In this document: positions 1 through 7,700 of the stretch, piece by piece
How the letters are laid out: each line of letters starts with the position of its first letter
Numbering within the stretch: position 1 is the first letter of the stretch
DNA from: a bacterium
Lineage (GTDB): Bacteria > Zixibacteria > MSB-5A5 > GN15 > FEB-12
NCBI GenBank assembly: GCA_020444475.1
Contig: JAHLKV010000001.1
Span: forward strand, 682,001-746,000
Length of the DNA: 64,000 nt
Direction of reading: 5' to 3'
The notes under the pieces: generated by a model
Told to the model about the DNA's origin: nothing
Database searches by the model: none
Seen by the model: only the letters and a program-made list of their open reading frames with translations
Translations under genes and position numbers: made by a program

Positions 1-1146
1 TGCTGGTTGACCAACCACGAAGAGAAGAAATTTTTTGACTGTCTCGCGGCCTACTCCGCCGCCAACCAGGGCCACCATCACCCCCATATCGTCAACGCCC
101 TGATCGAGGCCCTCAAAGGCCACTACGGCTCCGTGATCTCGAATGTCGTCTACACCGACTCACTCGCCATGTTCCTCAAGCGCCTCGCCACCACCGTCCC
201 GCAGCTCGGACCCCGTTTCGGCGCCCACGGCAACAAAGTCCTGCCGAAAAACGGCGGTGTCGAATCGGTCGAAACCGCGGTCAAGCTCGCCCGCTATTAC
301 GGCTGGAAACAAAAAGGCATCGAGGACGGCAAGCAGGAAATCATCGTTTTCGAACGCAACTTCCACGGTCGCATGATCACCACCGTGTCGTTCTCGCCGA
401 CCAAGAAATACAAAGAAGGTTTCGGCCCCCTGACTCCCGGCTTCAAGTTCGCCAAATACGGCGACCTCGATTCGGTCGAGAAACTCATCACCCCCAACAC
501 CTGTGGTATCCTCGTCGAACCGGGTCAGGGCGAAGGCGGCATGTACATGCCCCCGGCCGGCTTCCTCAAAGGCCTCCGCGAGCTGTCCGACAAAAACGAC
601 CTCGTCCTGATTTTCGATGAAATCCAGGTCGGCCTCGGACGCACCGGCAAGATGTTCTGTTTCGAACACGAAAACGTCATCCCCGATGCGGTCACGCTCG
701 GCAAAGCCATCTCCGGCGGACTCGTCCCGCTGTCGTGCATGGTCGCCAACAGCAAGCTGATGGATCTCGTCTTCCGTCCGGGCTCCGATGGTTCCACCTA
801 CGGTGGTTATCCGCTCGCCTGTGTCGCCGGCAATGCTGCCATTGATGTCTTGATCGATGAGAAACTGCCGCAGCGCGCCGAAGAGATGGGCAGGAAGATG
901 AAGGCGAAGATCGACGATATCGCCTCGCGCTCGGACAAGGTGAAAGAGGTCCGCGGCCGCGGGCTGTTTATCGGGATCGAGGTTAACGACGGCGATGCTA
1001 TGAAGTACTGCCGCCAGTTGCTGGAGCTTGGCGTGCTGGCCAACGACAGCTACGGCCACACGATTCGCATGTCCCCGCCGCTGATCCTGACCGATAACGA
1101 GATCGACTATGTCTGCGAGCGCCTCGAGAAGGTGCTGGTGGGCTGA
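1..1146 (+). CDS. rocD: Ornithine--oxo-acid aminotransferase, 3' part (class III PLP)
   Basis: Class III PLP-dependent aminotransferase, best matched by ornithine delta-aminotransferase, which makes glutamate-5-semialdehyde from ornithine and 2-oxoglutarate in the cytoplasm. The frame is open at the left edge: the first codons (CW, then LTNHEEKKFFDCLAAYSA) align with the family's '(V)WDxEGxxYxDxLSAYSAVNQGH' region, so the true start lies outside the window and the TTG at 7 is not the start. Visible family features are LAAYSAANQGHHHP, FHGRMITTVSFS, the cofactor-site Asp in LVLIFDEIQVGLGRTG, and the PLP lysine in TLGKAISGG (codon 703-705). The C-terminal small domain is complete (RGRGLFIGIEVN to the stop). 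A strong terminator follows. Other class III transaminases are possible, but the AYSAxNQGH stretch favours ornithine. Confidence 0.85.
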   Translation, partial: CWLTNHEEKKFFDCLAAYSAANQGHHHPHIVNALIEALKGHYGSVISNVVYTDSLAMFLKRLATTVPQLGPRFGAHGNKVLPKNGGVESVETAVKLARYYGWKQKGIEDGKQEIIVFERNFHGRMITTVSFSPTKKYKEGFGPLTPGFKFAKYGDLDSVEKLITPNTCGILVEPGQGEGGMYMPPAGFLKGLRELSDKNDLVLIFDEIQVGLGRTGKMFCFEHENVIPDAVTLGKAISGGLVPLSCMVANSKLMDLVFRPGSDGSTYGGYPLACVAGNAAIDVLIDEKLPQRAEEMGRKMKAKIDDIASRSDKVKEVRGRGLFIGIEVNDGDAMKYCRQLLELGVLANDSYGHTIRMSPPLILTDNEIDYVCERLEKVLVG

Positions 1147-1172: not shown

Positions 1173-1207
1173 AAAAAGGCGACCCTGATGAAGGGTCGCC
1201 TTTTCTT
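1173..1207 (+). terminator. Rho-independent terminator after the aminotransferase
   Basis: GGCGACCC (1178-1185) and GGGTCGCC (1193-1200) form a perfect 8-bp stem, extended by A/T pairs, with a 7-nt loop. It is preceded by an A-run and followed by TTTTC. It lies 30 nt after the aminotransferase stop. Confidence 0.9.
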
Positions 1208-1288: not shown

Positions 1289-4200
1289 CTAGTTCCCCTT
1301 GACCAGCAATGCAGATAGCTCTTCGTGAAGTAGGCGACACTCCAAGAAACGGATCTCGGTGGCGGTTAGCGGAAATCGGGTCCACCAATAGCCCCTCTGA
1401 GTTACAAACAGTGAGACAACTTTAACTTTCCCTCGCCCAATGTCCCAATTCAATAGCCTTGCGACCCTTTGCCCATTCGCTTTCAAGTAGTCGTGACGTT
1501 TCTCAACCTTTGCCAGATAGCCTTCTTCAAGTGACCCATCCAGCTTCTTTCTTCCGAAAATCTTTTCCGCAATCCGTCGAGTATCTTTGAAGCACAGTGC
1601 TGGATCAATGATCTTGGACTCTATGTTGATCATGAGTCTCTGCCGGGGAAAGCACGCAAGAACATCACAATCGCCGATCTCGCCTGCTCCGGGGTCCAGC
1701 TTGATGATATACACATTTCGCTCCACCATGTTTGTGAAGCGTCCAACTATCTCCGCAATCTTCAATTCTAGCTGCCTCGTCAGAGTTTCGTGCGCTCGCC
1801 GAAGATATTCCTTTGTTGACGGCGCATCGATCGGAAGAGGCAGCTTGTAGGAGTCAGCCATGCTCATCCAAAGACTGCGTGCCTTTTGAGTCGTATAGGG
1901 ACCCCAGTAGTACACCCCTCCGATAGCGACGATTGGATTAACCGTGTATCGGGCTTCTCGCTTCGCAAACTCCCAAACGGGTATGTCGGGAGCTGGCTGC
2001 GCGTTTCCAGCAATGCGCACAACTTGGTCAGCGCTTAGTGTCAGAAGACTGAGTATAGGGACAATAGTGGACGGCCGAAATCCGCGAATCTGCGACGCAC
2101 ACACTGCTCCGATCTTCTCCGCAGTAGCCTTGTAGCTGGGTGCTTCGGGCACTCCCGCTCGCTCCGCCCAACTTGTAAGGATAGTAAGTACCTCAGCAAC
2201 ATTTCGTATTCCAAACCCCAAATCAGACTCAAATGCACTGTCCAGACCGTCAAGAAACTCCACCCTGTCTTCGGGGAGTTCCGGAACGTCATCTCGCCTC
2301 CCGACCAATCCAAGTCTGATGTTCGCGTCTTCACTACCGAAAATGCGCTCGCGTCGTGAAACCTCTGGACCGTACGACACGGACACCAGGTGGTCTGTTC
2401 CAATCTCAAGAGCGGCGGGCATCAACCCGTTGTGAAGAATATCGCTTGCCGTGTACAAGTCGAGCATCTTGCTCGACAATGCGAATACGCGCTTCAGCCC
2501 GGTTTCAGTGAGATGCGAGGGACCATTTGGGGAGAGTTGGACAAACTTTTCGATCAAGTATCGATATGTTCGGTGCTCTCGAAGGAAGTCTGTCCTACCC
2601 CTACTAAGGCTAGTCGAACGATCGTACTCTACTTCATGCTTCACTGATTTCTCAATCAGGAAGGTCTTCGATTCATACTCATGCACCAACCCTTCTACGC
2701 CCGAGAGCAAGAGCCTTAGCGACTGCTCAAGCTCGTACATGGATATCTCGTGATCGAGCACTGTCCTCAACCCTTCAATGAGGTTGTTGATGTTCTGCTT
2801 CGCATCTTCACCGGAATATGTTCCAGCTCTGACGCCCAACTTACTCGCGATTTCTGCAAGCGATCGGTTGGCCAGCTTGTGGTCCTGATCGCCTGCCAGG
2901 ATCGACCGGCCATGCTGCGGGAAAGATACTTCTTTCGTCTTCTCGAAAAGTCGAAATCTACTTGGTTTTCCCCGTTCGCCTTCAATCTCTGCTAAGACAG
3001 AATCCAAACGACTCTCTTGCCACACGGTTTGCAATGTGACAAGCAGATCAGTCAGTAGGTCTACTTGGATCGATCTGTCAGATGCCTCGCGCAAGATCTC
3101 AGCCGCGCGATCCTCGTCGTAGACAAAGACGATTTGTGCCATGTCTGGTCGGGAACCAGTGACATTGAAACTCCAGGCTTTGTCGGACGCGAGCATTCCC
3201 CGTAGTTTGCTTAGCTCCTCAGCGCGTTGAGTGACCGAAGTAGAGACGCAGAACACGCGGACCAATAATAACGATTTGGTGAATTCCAGCGTAGATATGG
3301 ACTGGGAGCACATCGTCAACGCATCCACGAGACAGTGCATGATGGAATCAACTAGTGGGCCTTCATCACTTCGAAACAGAGGCACTGGGCAGTTTACGGA
3401 AAACGTGGTGTGACCTATCGTCTCATAGTAGAAATACACCCGTTCGCGTTTTGACTTCAGTGACTTGGGAGAAACTCCTCCGACGATTTCCCAACTGCGA
3501 GGATGATCGCCTGGAGATGTTTGTGGAAACGACTTCCAAAAGTTTGAAAGCGACTGGAACCTGAATGCCGTGCCCCAAGTAGGCGGAATATAGACATAGT
3601 CGGGCACGGTGGCTCCTTCGATCAACACGCCGGAGTAATCTCGGAAGGCAGCTAGCAAATCAAGAGGCGAGTTAAGTGGCGAGATACTAGTCTCATCTCT
3701 GAGCTGTTGTGAGAACTCCAAGAAGCTTGCCAACTCCTCCGTCCCGTGCACCTCGTCAAGTACCCCTAGTAGCTGATCCATTGCTATCACTGATGCCGGG
3801 AAGTCTTGCGGCAGTAGTATTGATTGCATTCTGGCACTTAGGTGAGGCATTGTCACAATGAAGACTGGTTGAAGGGCGCGCTCCCCGGACGTGGGGTGAA
3901 ACTCTACTACCTCGGAGATGGACCAGACACCTAAGCGGGTCGGTGAGTTCTGTAAGAGGTTCCGCGCCTCCACAAGCTTCGCCGTCATTTGCTCCATGAA
4001 CTGGGAGGCGCCCCGTAGAGTTTCGGAGACAGGCAGTATGCAAACCATCACGATCTGCCCACCTGCATGGATTGCACAGGCGAACGCCACGTCGTGCGGC
4101 TCCTCCTTTCCCTTCATCGCCGTGACGTAGCCGAAGATGTCAGTCATTGGGAATCTAGTGGCAACGTACTTCCAAAGACCAAAGCCTATGAGATCATCGA

Positions 4201-5044
4201 TATTCGGCTCCTCTTCCTTCATCCGATCCAGACGAGTAGAGAACAACTCACCCCATTTCGTGTGAAGCACTGATAGATAGTTTCTCGGCATCACAGGGTA
4301 GTATCGATCGCCTACCTTCCAGAAGTAGTGCACACAGTTCCCTTCCTCCATCGCCTTTCGAGAGAATGCGGAGAGCTTGGGCCAGCGGATTCGTCCTTCA
4401 TCATCTGCGGAGTAGCTGTAGAGAGTTGCCACATCGGCGTCAATACCCTCACCCCTCGTGAATTCTTCCAAGAAGCGCATACAGCTATTCCAGAACCACT
4501 CTGGAGGGACTTCGAGATACCCCTTGTCCACCTTGTTGGTGGGGACTGCTGACTGATCGATACCCCCGATGATTCTGTCCTGAAGTGCTGCGCACGCCTT
4601 AAGGTCCTCAATCGCGGACCGGCCAATCGACCTACGGTACACTTCATCCAGCGATCCATGCACGACCTCGAATGTGGCATAGAAGTCGATCGGATTCGAG
4701 AGGCTAGCCCCGTAGAAAACTTTGTAGTATTTCCCGTCAAAGAAGTATCTGATGTCACCCCAGTCTGATTCGGGTACGAAGTCCTCCAGCCGAGGAAAAG
4801 TCGGCAGCGCCTCCAACAGATCTCTACATAGCGCTTCGAAGTCACAATAGTCGCACACTCTATCCTCTCGAGACAGCTTCCGGTAAAGGTGCTGTAGCAC
4901 GGCATACAAGTATTCTATCCTGATTGGACTCCCAGTGTTGGGACGCCAGATGTTGAGGACGAAGATGGAACGGAGCAAGTCTACCGCACTGTATCGCTTC
5001 AGCAGTCGTTTCAATTTCCTCTTGTGAAGTCGCATTGTTTTCAA
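1289..5044 (-). CDS. Very large orphan protein with PD-(D/E)XK-like C-terminus
   Basis: About 1,251 residues, function not recognised. No signal peptide or membrane segment is visible. The N-terminus is very basic (MKTMRLHKRKLKRLLKRY), with a CDYC pair near residue 64. The long middle part has no family I can name. Near the C-terminus, the segment GEIGDCDVLACF...MINIESKII places an acidic residue and an ExK in the spacing of a PD-(D/E)XK nuclease core, followed by an alpha-helical region with conserved-looking aromatic residues. Codon use and base composition are visibly less GC-rich than in the neighbours, suggesting acquisition by transfer. The start could be TTG (5044) or the ATG four codons in; neither has a good ribosome site. 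It stands alone on its strand between unrelated genes, as single-gene defence systems often do, but a defence role is inference only. Confidence 0.6.
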   Translation of the reverse strand: MKTMRLHKRKLKRLLKRYSAVDLLRSIFVLNIWRPNTGSPIRIEYLYAVLQHLYRKLSREDRVCDYCDFEALCRDLLEALPTFPRLEDFVPESDWGDIRYFFDGKYYKVFYGASLSNPIDFYATFEVVHGSLDEVYRRSIGRSAIEDLKACAALQDRIIGGIDQSAVPTNKVDKGYLEVPPEWFWNSCMRFLEEFTRGEGIDADVATLYSYSADDEGRIRWPKLSAFSRKAMEEGNCVHYFWKVGDRYYPVMPRNYLSVLHTKWGELFSTRLDRMKEEEPNIDDLIGFGLWKYVATRFPMTDIFGYVTAMKGKEEPHDVAFACAIHAGGQIVMVCILPVSETLRGASQFMEQMTAKLVEARNLLQNSPTRLGVWSISEVVEFHPTSGERALQPVFIVTMPHLSARMQSILLPQDFPASVIAMDQLLGVLDEVHGTEELASFLEFSQQLRDETSISPLNSPLDLLAAFRDYSGVLIEGATVPDYVYIPPTWGTAFRFQSLSNFWKSFPQTSPGDHPRSWEIVGGVSPKSLKSKRERVYFYYETIGHTTFSVNCPVPLFRSDEGPLVDSIMHCLVDALTMCSQSISTLEFTKSLLLVRVFCVSTSVTQRAEELSKLRGMLASDKAWSFNVTGSRPDMAQIVFVYDEDRAAEILREASDRSIQVDLLTDLLVTLQTVWQESRLDSVLAEIEGERGKPSRFRLFEKTKEVSFPQHGRSILAGDQDHKLANRSLAEIASKLGVRAGTYSGEDAKQNINNLIEGLRTVLDHEISMYELEQSLRLLLSGVEGLVHEYESKTFLIEKSVKHEVEYDRSTSLSRGRTDFLREHRTYRYLIEKFVQLSPNGPSHLTETGLKRVFALSSKMLDLYTASDILHNGLMPAALEIGTDHLVSVSYGPEVSRRERIFGSEDANIRLGLVGRRDDVPELPEDRVEFLDGLDSAFESDLGFGIRNVAEVLTILTSWAERAGVPEAPSYKATAEKIGAVCASQIRGFRPSTIVPILSLLTLSADQVVRIAGNAQPAPDIPVWEFAKREARYTVNPIVAIGGVYYWGPYTTQKARSLWMSMADSYKLPLPIDAPSTKEYLRRAHETLTRQLELKIAEIVGRFTNMVERNVYIIKLDPGAGEIGDCDVLACFPRQRLMINIESKIIDPALCFKDTRRIAEKIFGRKKLDGSLEEGYLAKVEKRHDYLKANGQRVARLLNWDIGRGKVKVVSLFVTQRGYWWTRFPLTATEIRFLECRLLHEELSALLVKGN

Positions 5045-5196
5045 ACCAGTAATCGTGGTAACGGAAGCTCTCTTCGGTCCTAACCCCGAAGAAGAATAGT
5101 ATAGAAGTGTTGAGGATTCAACGAGAAAGGTCCGTCCCCCCCCTCACTTTCCCTACAACTTCGATGGTGATCGGAAAATTGCCGGCTTTTATATAA

Positions 5197-5210
5197 CACG
5201 CGCGCGCGTG
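5197..5210. repeat. Perfect alternating CACGCGCGCGCGTG palindrome
   Basis: A 14-bp self-complementary purine-pyrimidine tract lies 66 nt upstream of the ATG at 5276, right after TTTTATATAA. A second small inverted repeat, GACGT-N7-ACGTC (5211-5227), follows. It could be an operator or simply a Z-DNA-prone tract; no partner is known. Confidence 0.4.
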
Positions 5211-5275
5211 GACGTGTCCGAAACGTCACACCGTGTCGCTTTAACAAAGCCGACCCCATCCGAAGGAGTCCTGTC

Positions 5276-5875
5276 ATGCGAGTCTCGAAACAAACCAAAG
5301 CCAACCGCGCCAACGCCCAAAAATCCACCGGGCCGATCACCGATGAAGGCAAAGCGATCGTCGCCCAAAACGCCGTCACCCACGGTCTCCATTCCACCCG
5401 GGTCGTGATCAATTCCCCCCACCTCAAAGAAGACCCCGATGAATACCGGCTGCTGCTCGGCTCGCTGATCTGGGAGCTCGAACCGGTCGGCGTCCTGCAG
5501 CACCACCTCGTCCACAAAATCGCCAACGCCCTCTGGCGCTACAAACGCGTCATCCGCGCCGAAACCGGCGCCCTCGAACGCCAACTCGACTACGCCACCA
5601 CCCGCGACTACTCCCTCTTCCGCGAAAAACCCGACCTCGACACAGAACAGGGCCGCGCCCACTACCAAATCCTCCTCGACCAGCGCAAGGCGGCTTATCT
5701 CGATGAATCCCAGATCCCGAGCGAATCCGATTCCGTCAAACTCCTCCGCTACGAACTCCGTCTCGACCGCCAAATCACTCGCGCCCATAAACTTTTGCGC
5801 CGCCTCCAGCGCCTGGACCGGGCCGCCCGCGCCGCCGAAGAGGCCAAATCCCAAAAAAAACACCCTAAAAAATAA
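5276..5875 (+). CDS. Small basic protein with NAQKSTGPxTDEGK motif, unknown function
   Basis: 199 residues. The N-terminus carries the stereotyped block KANRANAQKSTGPITDEGK, followed by QNAVTHGLHS. This block is seen in many uncharacterised proteins of Planctomycetes, Acidobacteria and candidate phyla, usually in multicopy families. The middle (LEPVGVLQHHLVHKIANALWRYKR) is helical, and the C-terminus is a charged likely coiled coil (LRYELRLDRQITRAHKLLRRLQRLDRA). The start is set by GAAGGAG 9 nt upstream of ATG 5276. No signal peptide or catalytic motif is visible. The unusually C-rich third codon positions (many ccc/ctc/cgc) differ from the gene before it. No function is claimed; the family's N-terminal motif may bind nucleic acid, but that is speculation. 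Confidence 0.7.
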   Translation: MRVSKQTKANRANAQKSTGPITDEGKAIVAQNAVTHGLHSTRVVINSPHLKEDPDEYRLLLGSLIWELEPVGVLQHHLVHKIANALWRYKRVIRAETGALERQLDYATTRDYSLFREKPDLDTEQGRAHYQILLDQRKAAYLDESQIPSESDSVKLLRYELRLDRQITRAHKLLRRLQRLDRAARAAEEAKSQKKHPKK

Positions 5876-6788: not shown

Positions 6789-7700
6789 CTATCGCGCGGC
6801 GCGAAGCGAACCGACATAGATCGCGACAATCGTGATCGCCCCACCAATAAGCTGAGTCGGTCCCATCTGCTCAGCGAAAAACAACATCCCCCAGACGGTC
6901 GCCAGGGTCGGCTGCAGCAACAGCACCAGGCCGGTGCGCGATGCTTCCAGCAGCGCCATCGACCGCACGATCATGATCCACGCCGCCGCCTGCACCACCA
7001 CCCCGAGTGCGGCCACGACCGCGAGGTCGCGAAGAGTCGGCGGGAGGATCGGGTCCGGCTCGATCAGCCCGGCGATCCCGAGAAAGCCGGCCGAGATCAG
7101 CGCGACCCAGGTCATGAAAACGATCGGGTCGAGCCGGTCACTCTGGTGCGACGCCCGCTTGAGCGTGATCAGGTACGACGCGTAGCACAGCCCGGTCGCC
7201 AGCCCGAACGCGACCCCCTTCAGGTAGCTGGTGCTGAACTGGACCTCTCCCCCGACCCCGACCAGCAGCACCACCCCGACCATGGCGCTGACGGCGGCGA
7301 TTATGAACCGGACCGTCAGGCGCTCGTGAAACAGCACGACCCCAAACACGGCGGTCGCGAAAACCTGGGTGTTGCCGAGAATGGTCGCCATCCCGGCCCC
7401 GGTGTAGATGATCGACTTGTGCCAGACGAACAGGTCGAGAAAAAACACAAACCCGGCGATAAGCGCAAACTTCCAGAGCTTCGCCGGAAGGATCAGGCTC
7501 CGTCCCGAGGCGAGAGTCAGGACGACCAGGGCCAGCCCGCCGATCAGGTTGCGCCAGAATGCGATCGCCGTCGGCCCCATCGATTCGGTGTCGATCATCT
7601 TGACGAAGATCGGCGCAAACGAAATCAGCAGGGCGCCGAGGATCAGGGTCACCATCGGAGGGACAAATCGCGGCGGTCGCTGGAGGTTCGGTTCAGACAT
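6789..7700 (-). CDS. EamA/DMT-family transporter
   Basis: 303-residue integral inner-membrane protein of the drug/metabolite transporter superfamily with two EamA repeats and ten predicted membrane helices. Each repeat starts with a typical helix (LILGALLISFAPIFVKM; LKGVAFGLATGLCYASYLITLKRA) and ends in the AxxWGxLFFxExxxxxxxIGxxxI pattern (LATVWGMLFFAEQMGPTQLIGGAITIVAIYVG). The first-repeat equivalent is FGVVLFHERLTVRFIIAAVSAMVGVVLLV. The substrate is unknown; relatives export amino acids or metabolites. The ribosome site before ATG 7700 is poor (TATCCTCCGGCC), so the start is not certain. It is transcribed alone, divergent from the giant surface protein, with a 33-bp palindrome between them. 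Confidence 0.85.
   Translation of the reverse strand: MSEPNLQRPPRFVPPMVTLILGALLISFAPIFVKMIDTESMGPTAIAFWRNLIGGLALVVLTLASGRSLILPAKLWKFALIAGFVFFLDLFVWHKSIIYTGAGMATILGNTQVFATAVFGVVLFHERLTVRFIIAAVSAMVGVVLLVGVGGEVQFSTSYLKGVAFGLATGLCYASYLITLKRASHQSDRLDPIVFMTWVALISAGFLGIAGLIEPDPILPPTLRDLAVVAALGVVVQAAAWIMIVRSMALLEASRTGLVLLLQPTLATVWGMLFFAEQMGPTQLIGGAITIVAIYVGSLRAAR

Follow-up and report, generated by a model that had tools for sequence, protein, structure and literature searches.

Gao et al. reportedly gave the first demonstration, in 2020, that Upx protects E. coli as a single gene; it has been read as an uncharacterised PD-(D/E)XK defence protein. Upx is the closest known system to the gene described here (PADLOC PDLC02221) and has an entry in the PDB (9wuf, 'Cryo-EM structure of Upx', deposited as 'Restriction endonuclease'), whose match to the family profile, at 1,210 bits, confirms it as a canonical Upx; no paper describing the structure of Upx was found in the open literature. 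Upx is placed among the defence systems that act by degrading nucleic acid (PMC10855318), and Pseudomonas genomes that have PAGI-1 encode it almost exclusively in one hotspot (PMC12629846).

The gene described here lies in a stretch of 64,000 nucleotides of a Zixibacteria genome, referred to as the window. It is a distant cousin of Upx, and the small clade to which it belongs escapes the defence-gene models now in use. The features of the gene and its surroundings are as follows, in window coordinates:

1..1146, plus strand: left flank, argD-like aminotransferase gene, its order with the EamA gene being conserved in relatives
1178..1200, no strand: inverted repeat GGCGACCC/GGGTCGCC, rich in GC and flanked by runs of A and T, read from the sequence
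1289..5044, minus strand: Upx-like putative nuclease gene, 1,251 aa, TTG start at 5044 with an alternative ATG at 5035 (ORF, homology, fold)
1289..1822, minus strand: C-terminal PD-(D/E)XK-type nuclease domain, about residues 1075-1251 (AlphaFold2 model, conservation)
1613..1675, minus strand: active-site motif G-D-x-D1127 ... E1142-x-K1144, residues 1124-1144 (conservation)
1823..2884, minus strand: helical region before the nuclease domain, about residues 721-1074 (profile match, model)
2885..5044, minus strand: N-terminal region, residues 1-720 (alignment, low-confidence model)
5141..5242, no strand: right edge of the variable segment, a block of about 100 bp that is 86% identical to genome G001 (L056 2121-2222)
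6789..7700, minus strand: right flank, EamA-family transporter gene

The reading frame is intact, with 1,251 codons and no internal stops, and the open frame around it extends to 1,284 codons; the alternative in-frame ATG is three codons past the TTG. The gene has a GC content of 51.9% against 58.0% for the whole window, and the four 1-kb bins over it are the lowest of 64 (51.5-53.0%, with all remaining bins at 54.7% or above). An earlier note on this DNA had described the gene as lower in GC than its neighbours and as standing alone. It is indeed the GC-poorest part of the window by 1-kb bins, and its company consists of the aminotransferase gene on one side and a 199-aa ORF and the EamA transporter gene on the other.

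The aminotransferase gene (stop at 1146) and the nuclease gene are convergent, and the inverted repeat between them is a probable bidirectional terminator. The argD-EamA arrangement is kept in other genomes of the host family. In two more distant genomes the interval between these genes is only 1.3 and 0.8 kb, and in G001, a genome of the same genus, it holds a small transposase-like gene (L056 1462-1968; call read from its sequence). G001 is without the nuclease gene and matches the conserved block at 5141-5242, which lies just upstream of the nuclease gene and immediately before the 199-aa ORF. This would fit a single gene acquired or replaced at a variable site. The 199-aa ORF itself (MRVSKQTKANRANAQKSTGPITDEGKA..., 5276-5875) lies upstream of the nuclease gene, is divergent from it and has no Pfam match. 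No mobility gene was found next to the window copy, no defence neighbours of it were seen, and no homologues of the Hsd proteins encoded beside the G820 relative (see below) were found in the whole window. As there are no partner genes nearby, the protein probably acts alone. The locus is best read as that of a horizontally acquired, solitary and mobile Upx-like defence nuclease.

When searched singly, the window protein gave no match in Pfam, PADLOC, NCBIfam, PHROGs or PDB sequences, a Pfam match to CP_ATPgrasp_1 (E=0.18) being noise, and nothing came up in plasmids, phages, viral contigs or GTDB contigs either. Among 132 genomes of the phylum, the lone true single-sequence relative was in G031 (E=3e-9; 3e-14 by pairwise BLASTP). 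A two-sequence profile then led to a third protein in G068 (Candidatus Zixiibacteriota PMV_8.32), with which tblastn identified relatives: full-length ones on plasmids of Deinococcus, and others in records from Sinorhizobium, Bosea and Salmonella. The description of the protein as an orphan is thus true only at single-sequence sensitivity, full-length relatives being found by profile searches. Seventeen of the matches made by the first profile, built from two rows, concerned only a small two-helix zinc-ribbon protein that is fused to the G031 relative, and not the nuclease; the profile was rebuilt without this part. A match in G049 (E=3e-4) was rejected as a relative, as its locus is one of sugar-nucleotide genes.

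The G031 relative (L004:7564-11658) directly follows a tRNA-SeC gene, inside which its open frame starts, and possesses an in-frame N-terminal module with two transmembrane helices and a CxxC...CxxC zinc ribbon. About 16 further genomes of the phylum have this module in small ORFs, and the joining of the module to the nuclease is apparently a fusion by insertion.

The Upx model of PADLOC matches the protein from Salmonella with 1,684 bits and those from Sinorhizobium (E=2e-128), Bosea (9e-77) and G068 (2e-39). A Upx-like profile of seven proteins, with the window protein and the G031 relative left out, finds the window protein with an E-value of 1.3e-15 (51.6 bits, residues 737-1217); decoys, namely 319 non-family ORFs of the loci, 400 shuffles and reversed copies, reached no more than 2.1 bits, with a best E-value of about 1. 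Profile-profile comparison with the Upx family gave 99.5% probability (E=4e-22) over 1,092 columns, and it is by this comparison only that the N-terminal part is aligned to Upx. The first 1,000 or so residues, previously said to match nothing, do align along the Upx family. In the reverse test, most canonical Upx-like proteins are recovered with a profile built from the window clade (best E=7e-28, best shuffle 0.8), with the most distant few canonical members (L085, L067) not separated from shuffles, and the top match of this profile in the whole PDB is 9wuf_A (E=0.0019). Remote-homology analysis, proposed in the earlier note, has hence yielded a relationship to the Upx family by both profile and profile-profile searches.

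The PADLOC Upx model gives no match to the window protein at E<=1 and sees its clade relatives marginally (G820 4e-4, P0004 1.7e-3, with G244 marginal too). Because the model misses it, the window protein is filed as belonging to a Upx-like sister clade and not as Upx proper. A further divergent relative was found on the Lactococcus plasmid pFI430 (WP_014735040.1, L093:4042-6720), an 892-aa 'hypothetical' protein with E-values of 8e-14 to the clade profile and 1e-9 to the canonical profile, which PADLOC also misses. Degenerate scans of viral contigs with deep alignments found none, and Salmonella Upx DNA had no match in E. coli genomes.

Full-length, colinear relatives of the window protein were identified in two phylum samples, one in a sample centred on an Acidobacteriota genome (G244, 33% over 1,243 residues) and one in a sample centred on a Bacteroidota genome (G820, 30% over 1,250 residues). 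In trees these group with the window protein at 100%. The G031 protein is a doubtful long-branch sister, and its placement is unsure because it and the window clade, although joined against all other members in the trees, join on long branches. The clade is rare and widely scattered, given that it has one member in 376 genomes of the Acidobacteriota-centred sample, one in 395 of the Bacteroidota-centred sample and none in 390 of a Chloroflexota-centred sample. Upx-family proteins as a whole occur in four of the 132 phylum genomes and are absent from both other genomes of the same genus, and Upx relatives are scattered over bacteria and archaea. A Pyrinomonadaceae genome has two tandem Upx-like genes of 1,218 and 1,238 aa (L065:8040-15418).

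Downstream of the active site, the clade has an invariant segment of its own (K1153-D1154..R1157..E1160..F1163-G-R...G1175-Y), which replaces the canonical KDLxxARTPxE...KHxxR. The window protein is without the canonical ECKDLxxARTPxE and KHxxR in this part, and the canonical DxDK and DNxxER upstream are also missing. The G820 relative retains ECKDL and by this motif is an intermediate state between canonical Upx and the window clade.

The PD-(D/E)XK-like end reported in the earlier note is well founded. The motif reads as was written there, G1124-D-C-D1127-V-L-A-C ... I-N-I-E1142-S-K1144, and G1124, D1127, E1142 and K1144 are identical in all 30 aligned relatives from bacteria and archaea, so the motif is not a chance occurrence. 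An AlphaFold2 model was made of residues 52-1251 from an alignment of 23 sequences, canonical Upx rows included. Its mean pLDDT is 61; residues from about 721 onwards are mostly at 70-90, and residues 1-720 are poorly modelled. In the nuclease domain (pLDDT mostly 70-85; order helix-strand-strand-strand-helix-helix-strand) the modelled core consists of a helix at 1075-1101, strands at 1110-1115, 1125-1132 (with D1127) and 1137-1144 (with E1142 and K1144), helices at 1152-1163 and 1176-1197, and a strand at 1208-1215. The predicted alpha-beta-beta-beta-alpha-beta order is that expected for a PD-(D/E)XK core, so that structure prediction, which had been suggested as a check, points to a nuclease core. 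The sole significant PDB fold match of the model is 9wuf (E=2.3e-21, probability 1.00, TM 0.49), which is supportive and not fully independent of the homology, since the alignment given to AlphaFold included canonical Upx proteins. Folding of the C-terminal 263 residues from the single sequence was uninformative (pLDDT 35). The region at 721-1074 (pLDDT mostly 70-90) is the best conserved outside the nuclease domain. The N-terminal region of residues 1-720, in which E87-D88 and P253 are conserved and the canonical DxDK and DNxxER are not kept, is presumed to be the recognition or regulatory part.

The gene product is quite probably a defence nuclease that works as one stand-alone protein and belongs to a divergent clade within the Upx superfamily. 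Its PD-(D/E)XK domain at the C-terminus, with a metal-dependent site formed by D1127, E1142 and K1144, would cut nucleic acid, with DNA of phages or plasmids as the most likely substrate and the metal bound at D1127 and E1142. The N-terminal 1,000 or so residues would detect the invader or the state of its DNA and hold or aim the nuclease. The homology, the conserved active-site residues, the patchy distribution and the gene contexts are observed directly, and from them we infer the nuclease activity, the DNA substrate, the anti-phage effect and the trigger. The earlier comparison with large single-gene phage-defence proteins receives support from the homology to the catalogued defence gene Upx and from the type I restriction operon around a clade member. 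Of the homologues, this member, from G820, lies among defence genes, and the window copy, at its variable site, and the G244 relative have ordinary neighbours; conserved housekeeping contexts of homologues were also looked for and were not found.

Of the genes close to the Upx-like ones at some 20 loci, 103 match PADLOC models at E<=1e-10, 295 models in total (a raw count, with similar models counted separately), and these neighbours include restriction, Argonaute and MADS genes. In G820 (L094:4446-15835) the order on one strand is hsdM, a Tin-like gene, hsdS, the Upx-like relative, hsdR and a SprT-like gene, and the canonical Upx of Flavivirga (L074) also has hsdS and hsdR as its direct neighbours on either side, with a SprT-like gene after them. 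In L071 and L078, hsdM-hsdS is separated from Upx by an Argonaute and one more gene, and Upx directly precedes hsdR, and in the zixibacterial genome G071 a canonical Upx lies after hsdM-hsdS-hsdR-SprT-Fic on the same strand. These arrangements favour an accessory nuclease of type I restriction, which would work with HsdM, HsdS and HsdR, for example by cutting DNA handled by HsdR or by acting when a phage blocks HsdR, the window copy then being stray or paired with a distant system. This is considered unlikely, the example roles included, as the window copy, the G244 relative and most other loci have no G820-like Hsd genes nearby. Upx was also reportedly first described, by Gao and colleagues, as a one-gene function. 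The association of a type I restriction operon, a Upx-type nuclease and a SprT-like metalloprotease gene recurs in G820, L074, L071, L078 and L059. The Argonaute between hsdS and Upx is of class II of the prokaryotic type (by PADLOC, in L071) and lies at L071:4614-6905 and L078:4614-6905; these are flavobacteria of different genera with nearly identical Upx proteins. On a plasmid of Deinococcus sp. QL22, the gene directly upstream of Upx (L026:4711-8556, 1,281 aa, annotated as hypothetical) encodes an Avs2-like STAND NTPase and was for this reason rejected as a second relative. A Bosea plasmid has a caspase-domain and DEAD-helicase fusion and TIR-domain proteins (L029:12054-18124) within a few kb of Upx.

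Relatives on plasmids of Deinococcus, Sinorhizobium, Bosea and Lactococcus and on viral contigs, together with one whose neighbour in Ca. Zixiibacteriota PMV_8.32 is a tyrosine recombinase, would also suit a nuclease serving a mobile element in maintenance, target preparation or competition between elements, and not in anti-phage defence. Such contexts separate the two roles poorly, because defence genes also ride mobile elements. Given that no mobility gene adjoins the window copy and that many loci have restriction, Argonaute or Avs genes, the usual company of defence genes, this role is judged more unlikely still. The ordinary flanking genes in the window and in G244, and a recG-like gene adjoining the G031 relative, might speak for a housekeeping DNA-repair nuclease that happens to carry a PD-(D/E)XK domain. 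This is very improbable for proteins that are missing from 128 of the 132 phylum genomes and from both other genomes of the genus, whose site has other content in relatives, and whose family is so scattered over bacteria and archaea.

The reading as a stand-alone Upx-like defence nuclease is accordingly kept. It may also be suggested, more tentatively, that the clade is a separate, undescribed family, sister to Upx, which would have kept the fold and the nuclease and have its own N-terminal and post-active-site signatures, possibly with a different trigger and the same hsd slot. If this is true, the window clade and Upx would be additional nuclease modules of type I restriction that can stand in for each other. 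An hsdS-hsdR slot common to two clades that are about 15% identical hints at cooperation between nucleases of the Upx type and type I restriction enzymes in at least some hosts. The locus also illustrates how a defence catalogue that relies on single models overlooks deep branches of known systems, which in this case turned up in samples from two further phyla.

In comparison with known systems, the window protein resembles HsdR as a large protein with its own PD-(D/E)XK nuclease, and some Upx-like relatives share an operon with HsdR. However, no helicase domain was found in it with Pfam or PADLOC, and the REase_I model of PADLOC is absent from it and from the G820 relative, whereas the neighbouring HsdR matches strongly. 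Some relatives have weak, sub-threshold Pfam matches to Mrr-type and UPF0102 domains (PF04471, PF02021) over the D..ExK segment, but these are below the curated cut-offs, the domains are small and have other partners, and the window protein is without such a match. From Upx it differs in being about 15% identical to canonical members and in lacking the canonical KDLxxARTPxE, KHxxR, DxDK and DNxxER, the clade having K-D..R..E..FGR...GY. It is alike to Upx in being a single protein of about 1,250 residues with a C-terminal D..ExK nuclease, alignable along most of its length, and in its overall predicted fold, its sporadic occurrence and, in the G820 clade member, its slot in a type I restriction operon, and the solved Upx structure provides a template for the clade on which active-site and motif swaps are directly testable.
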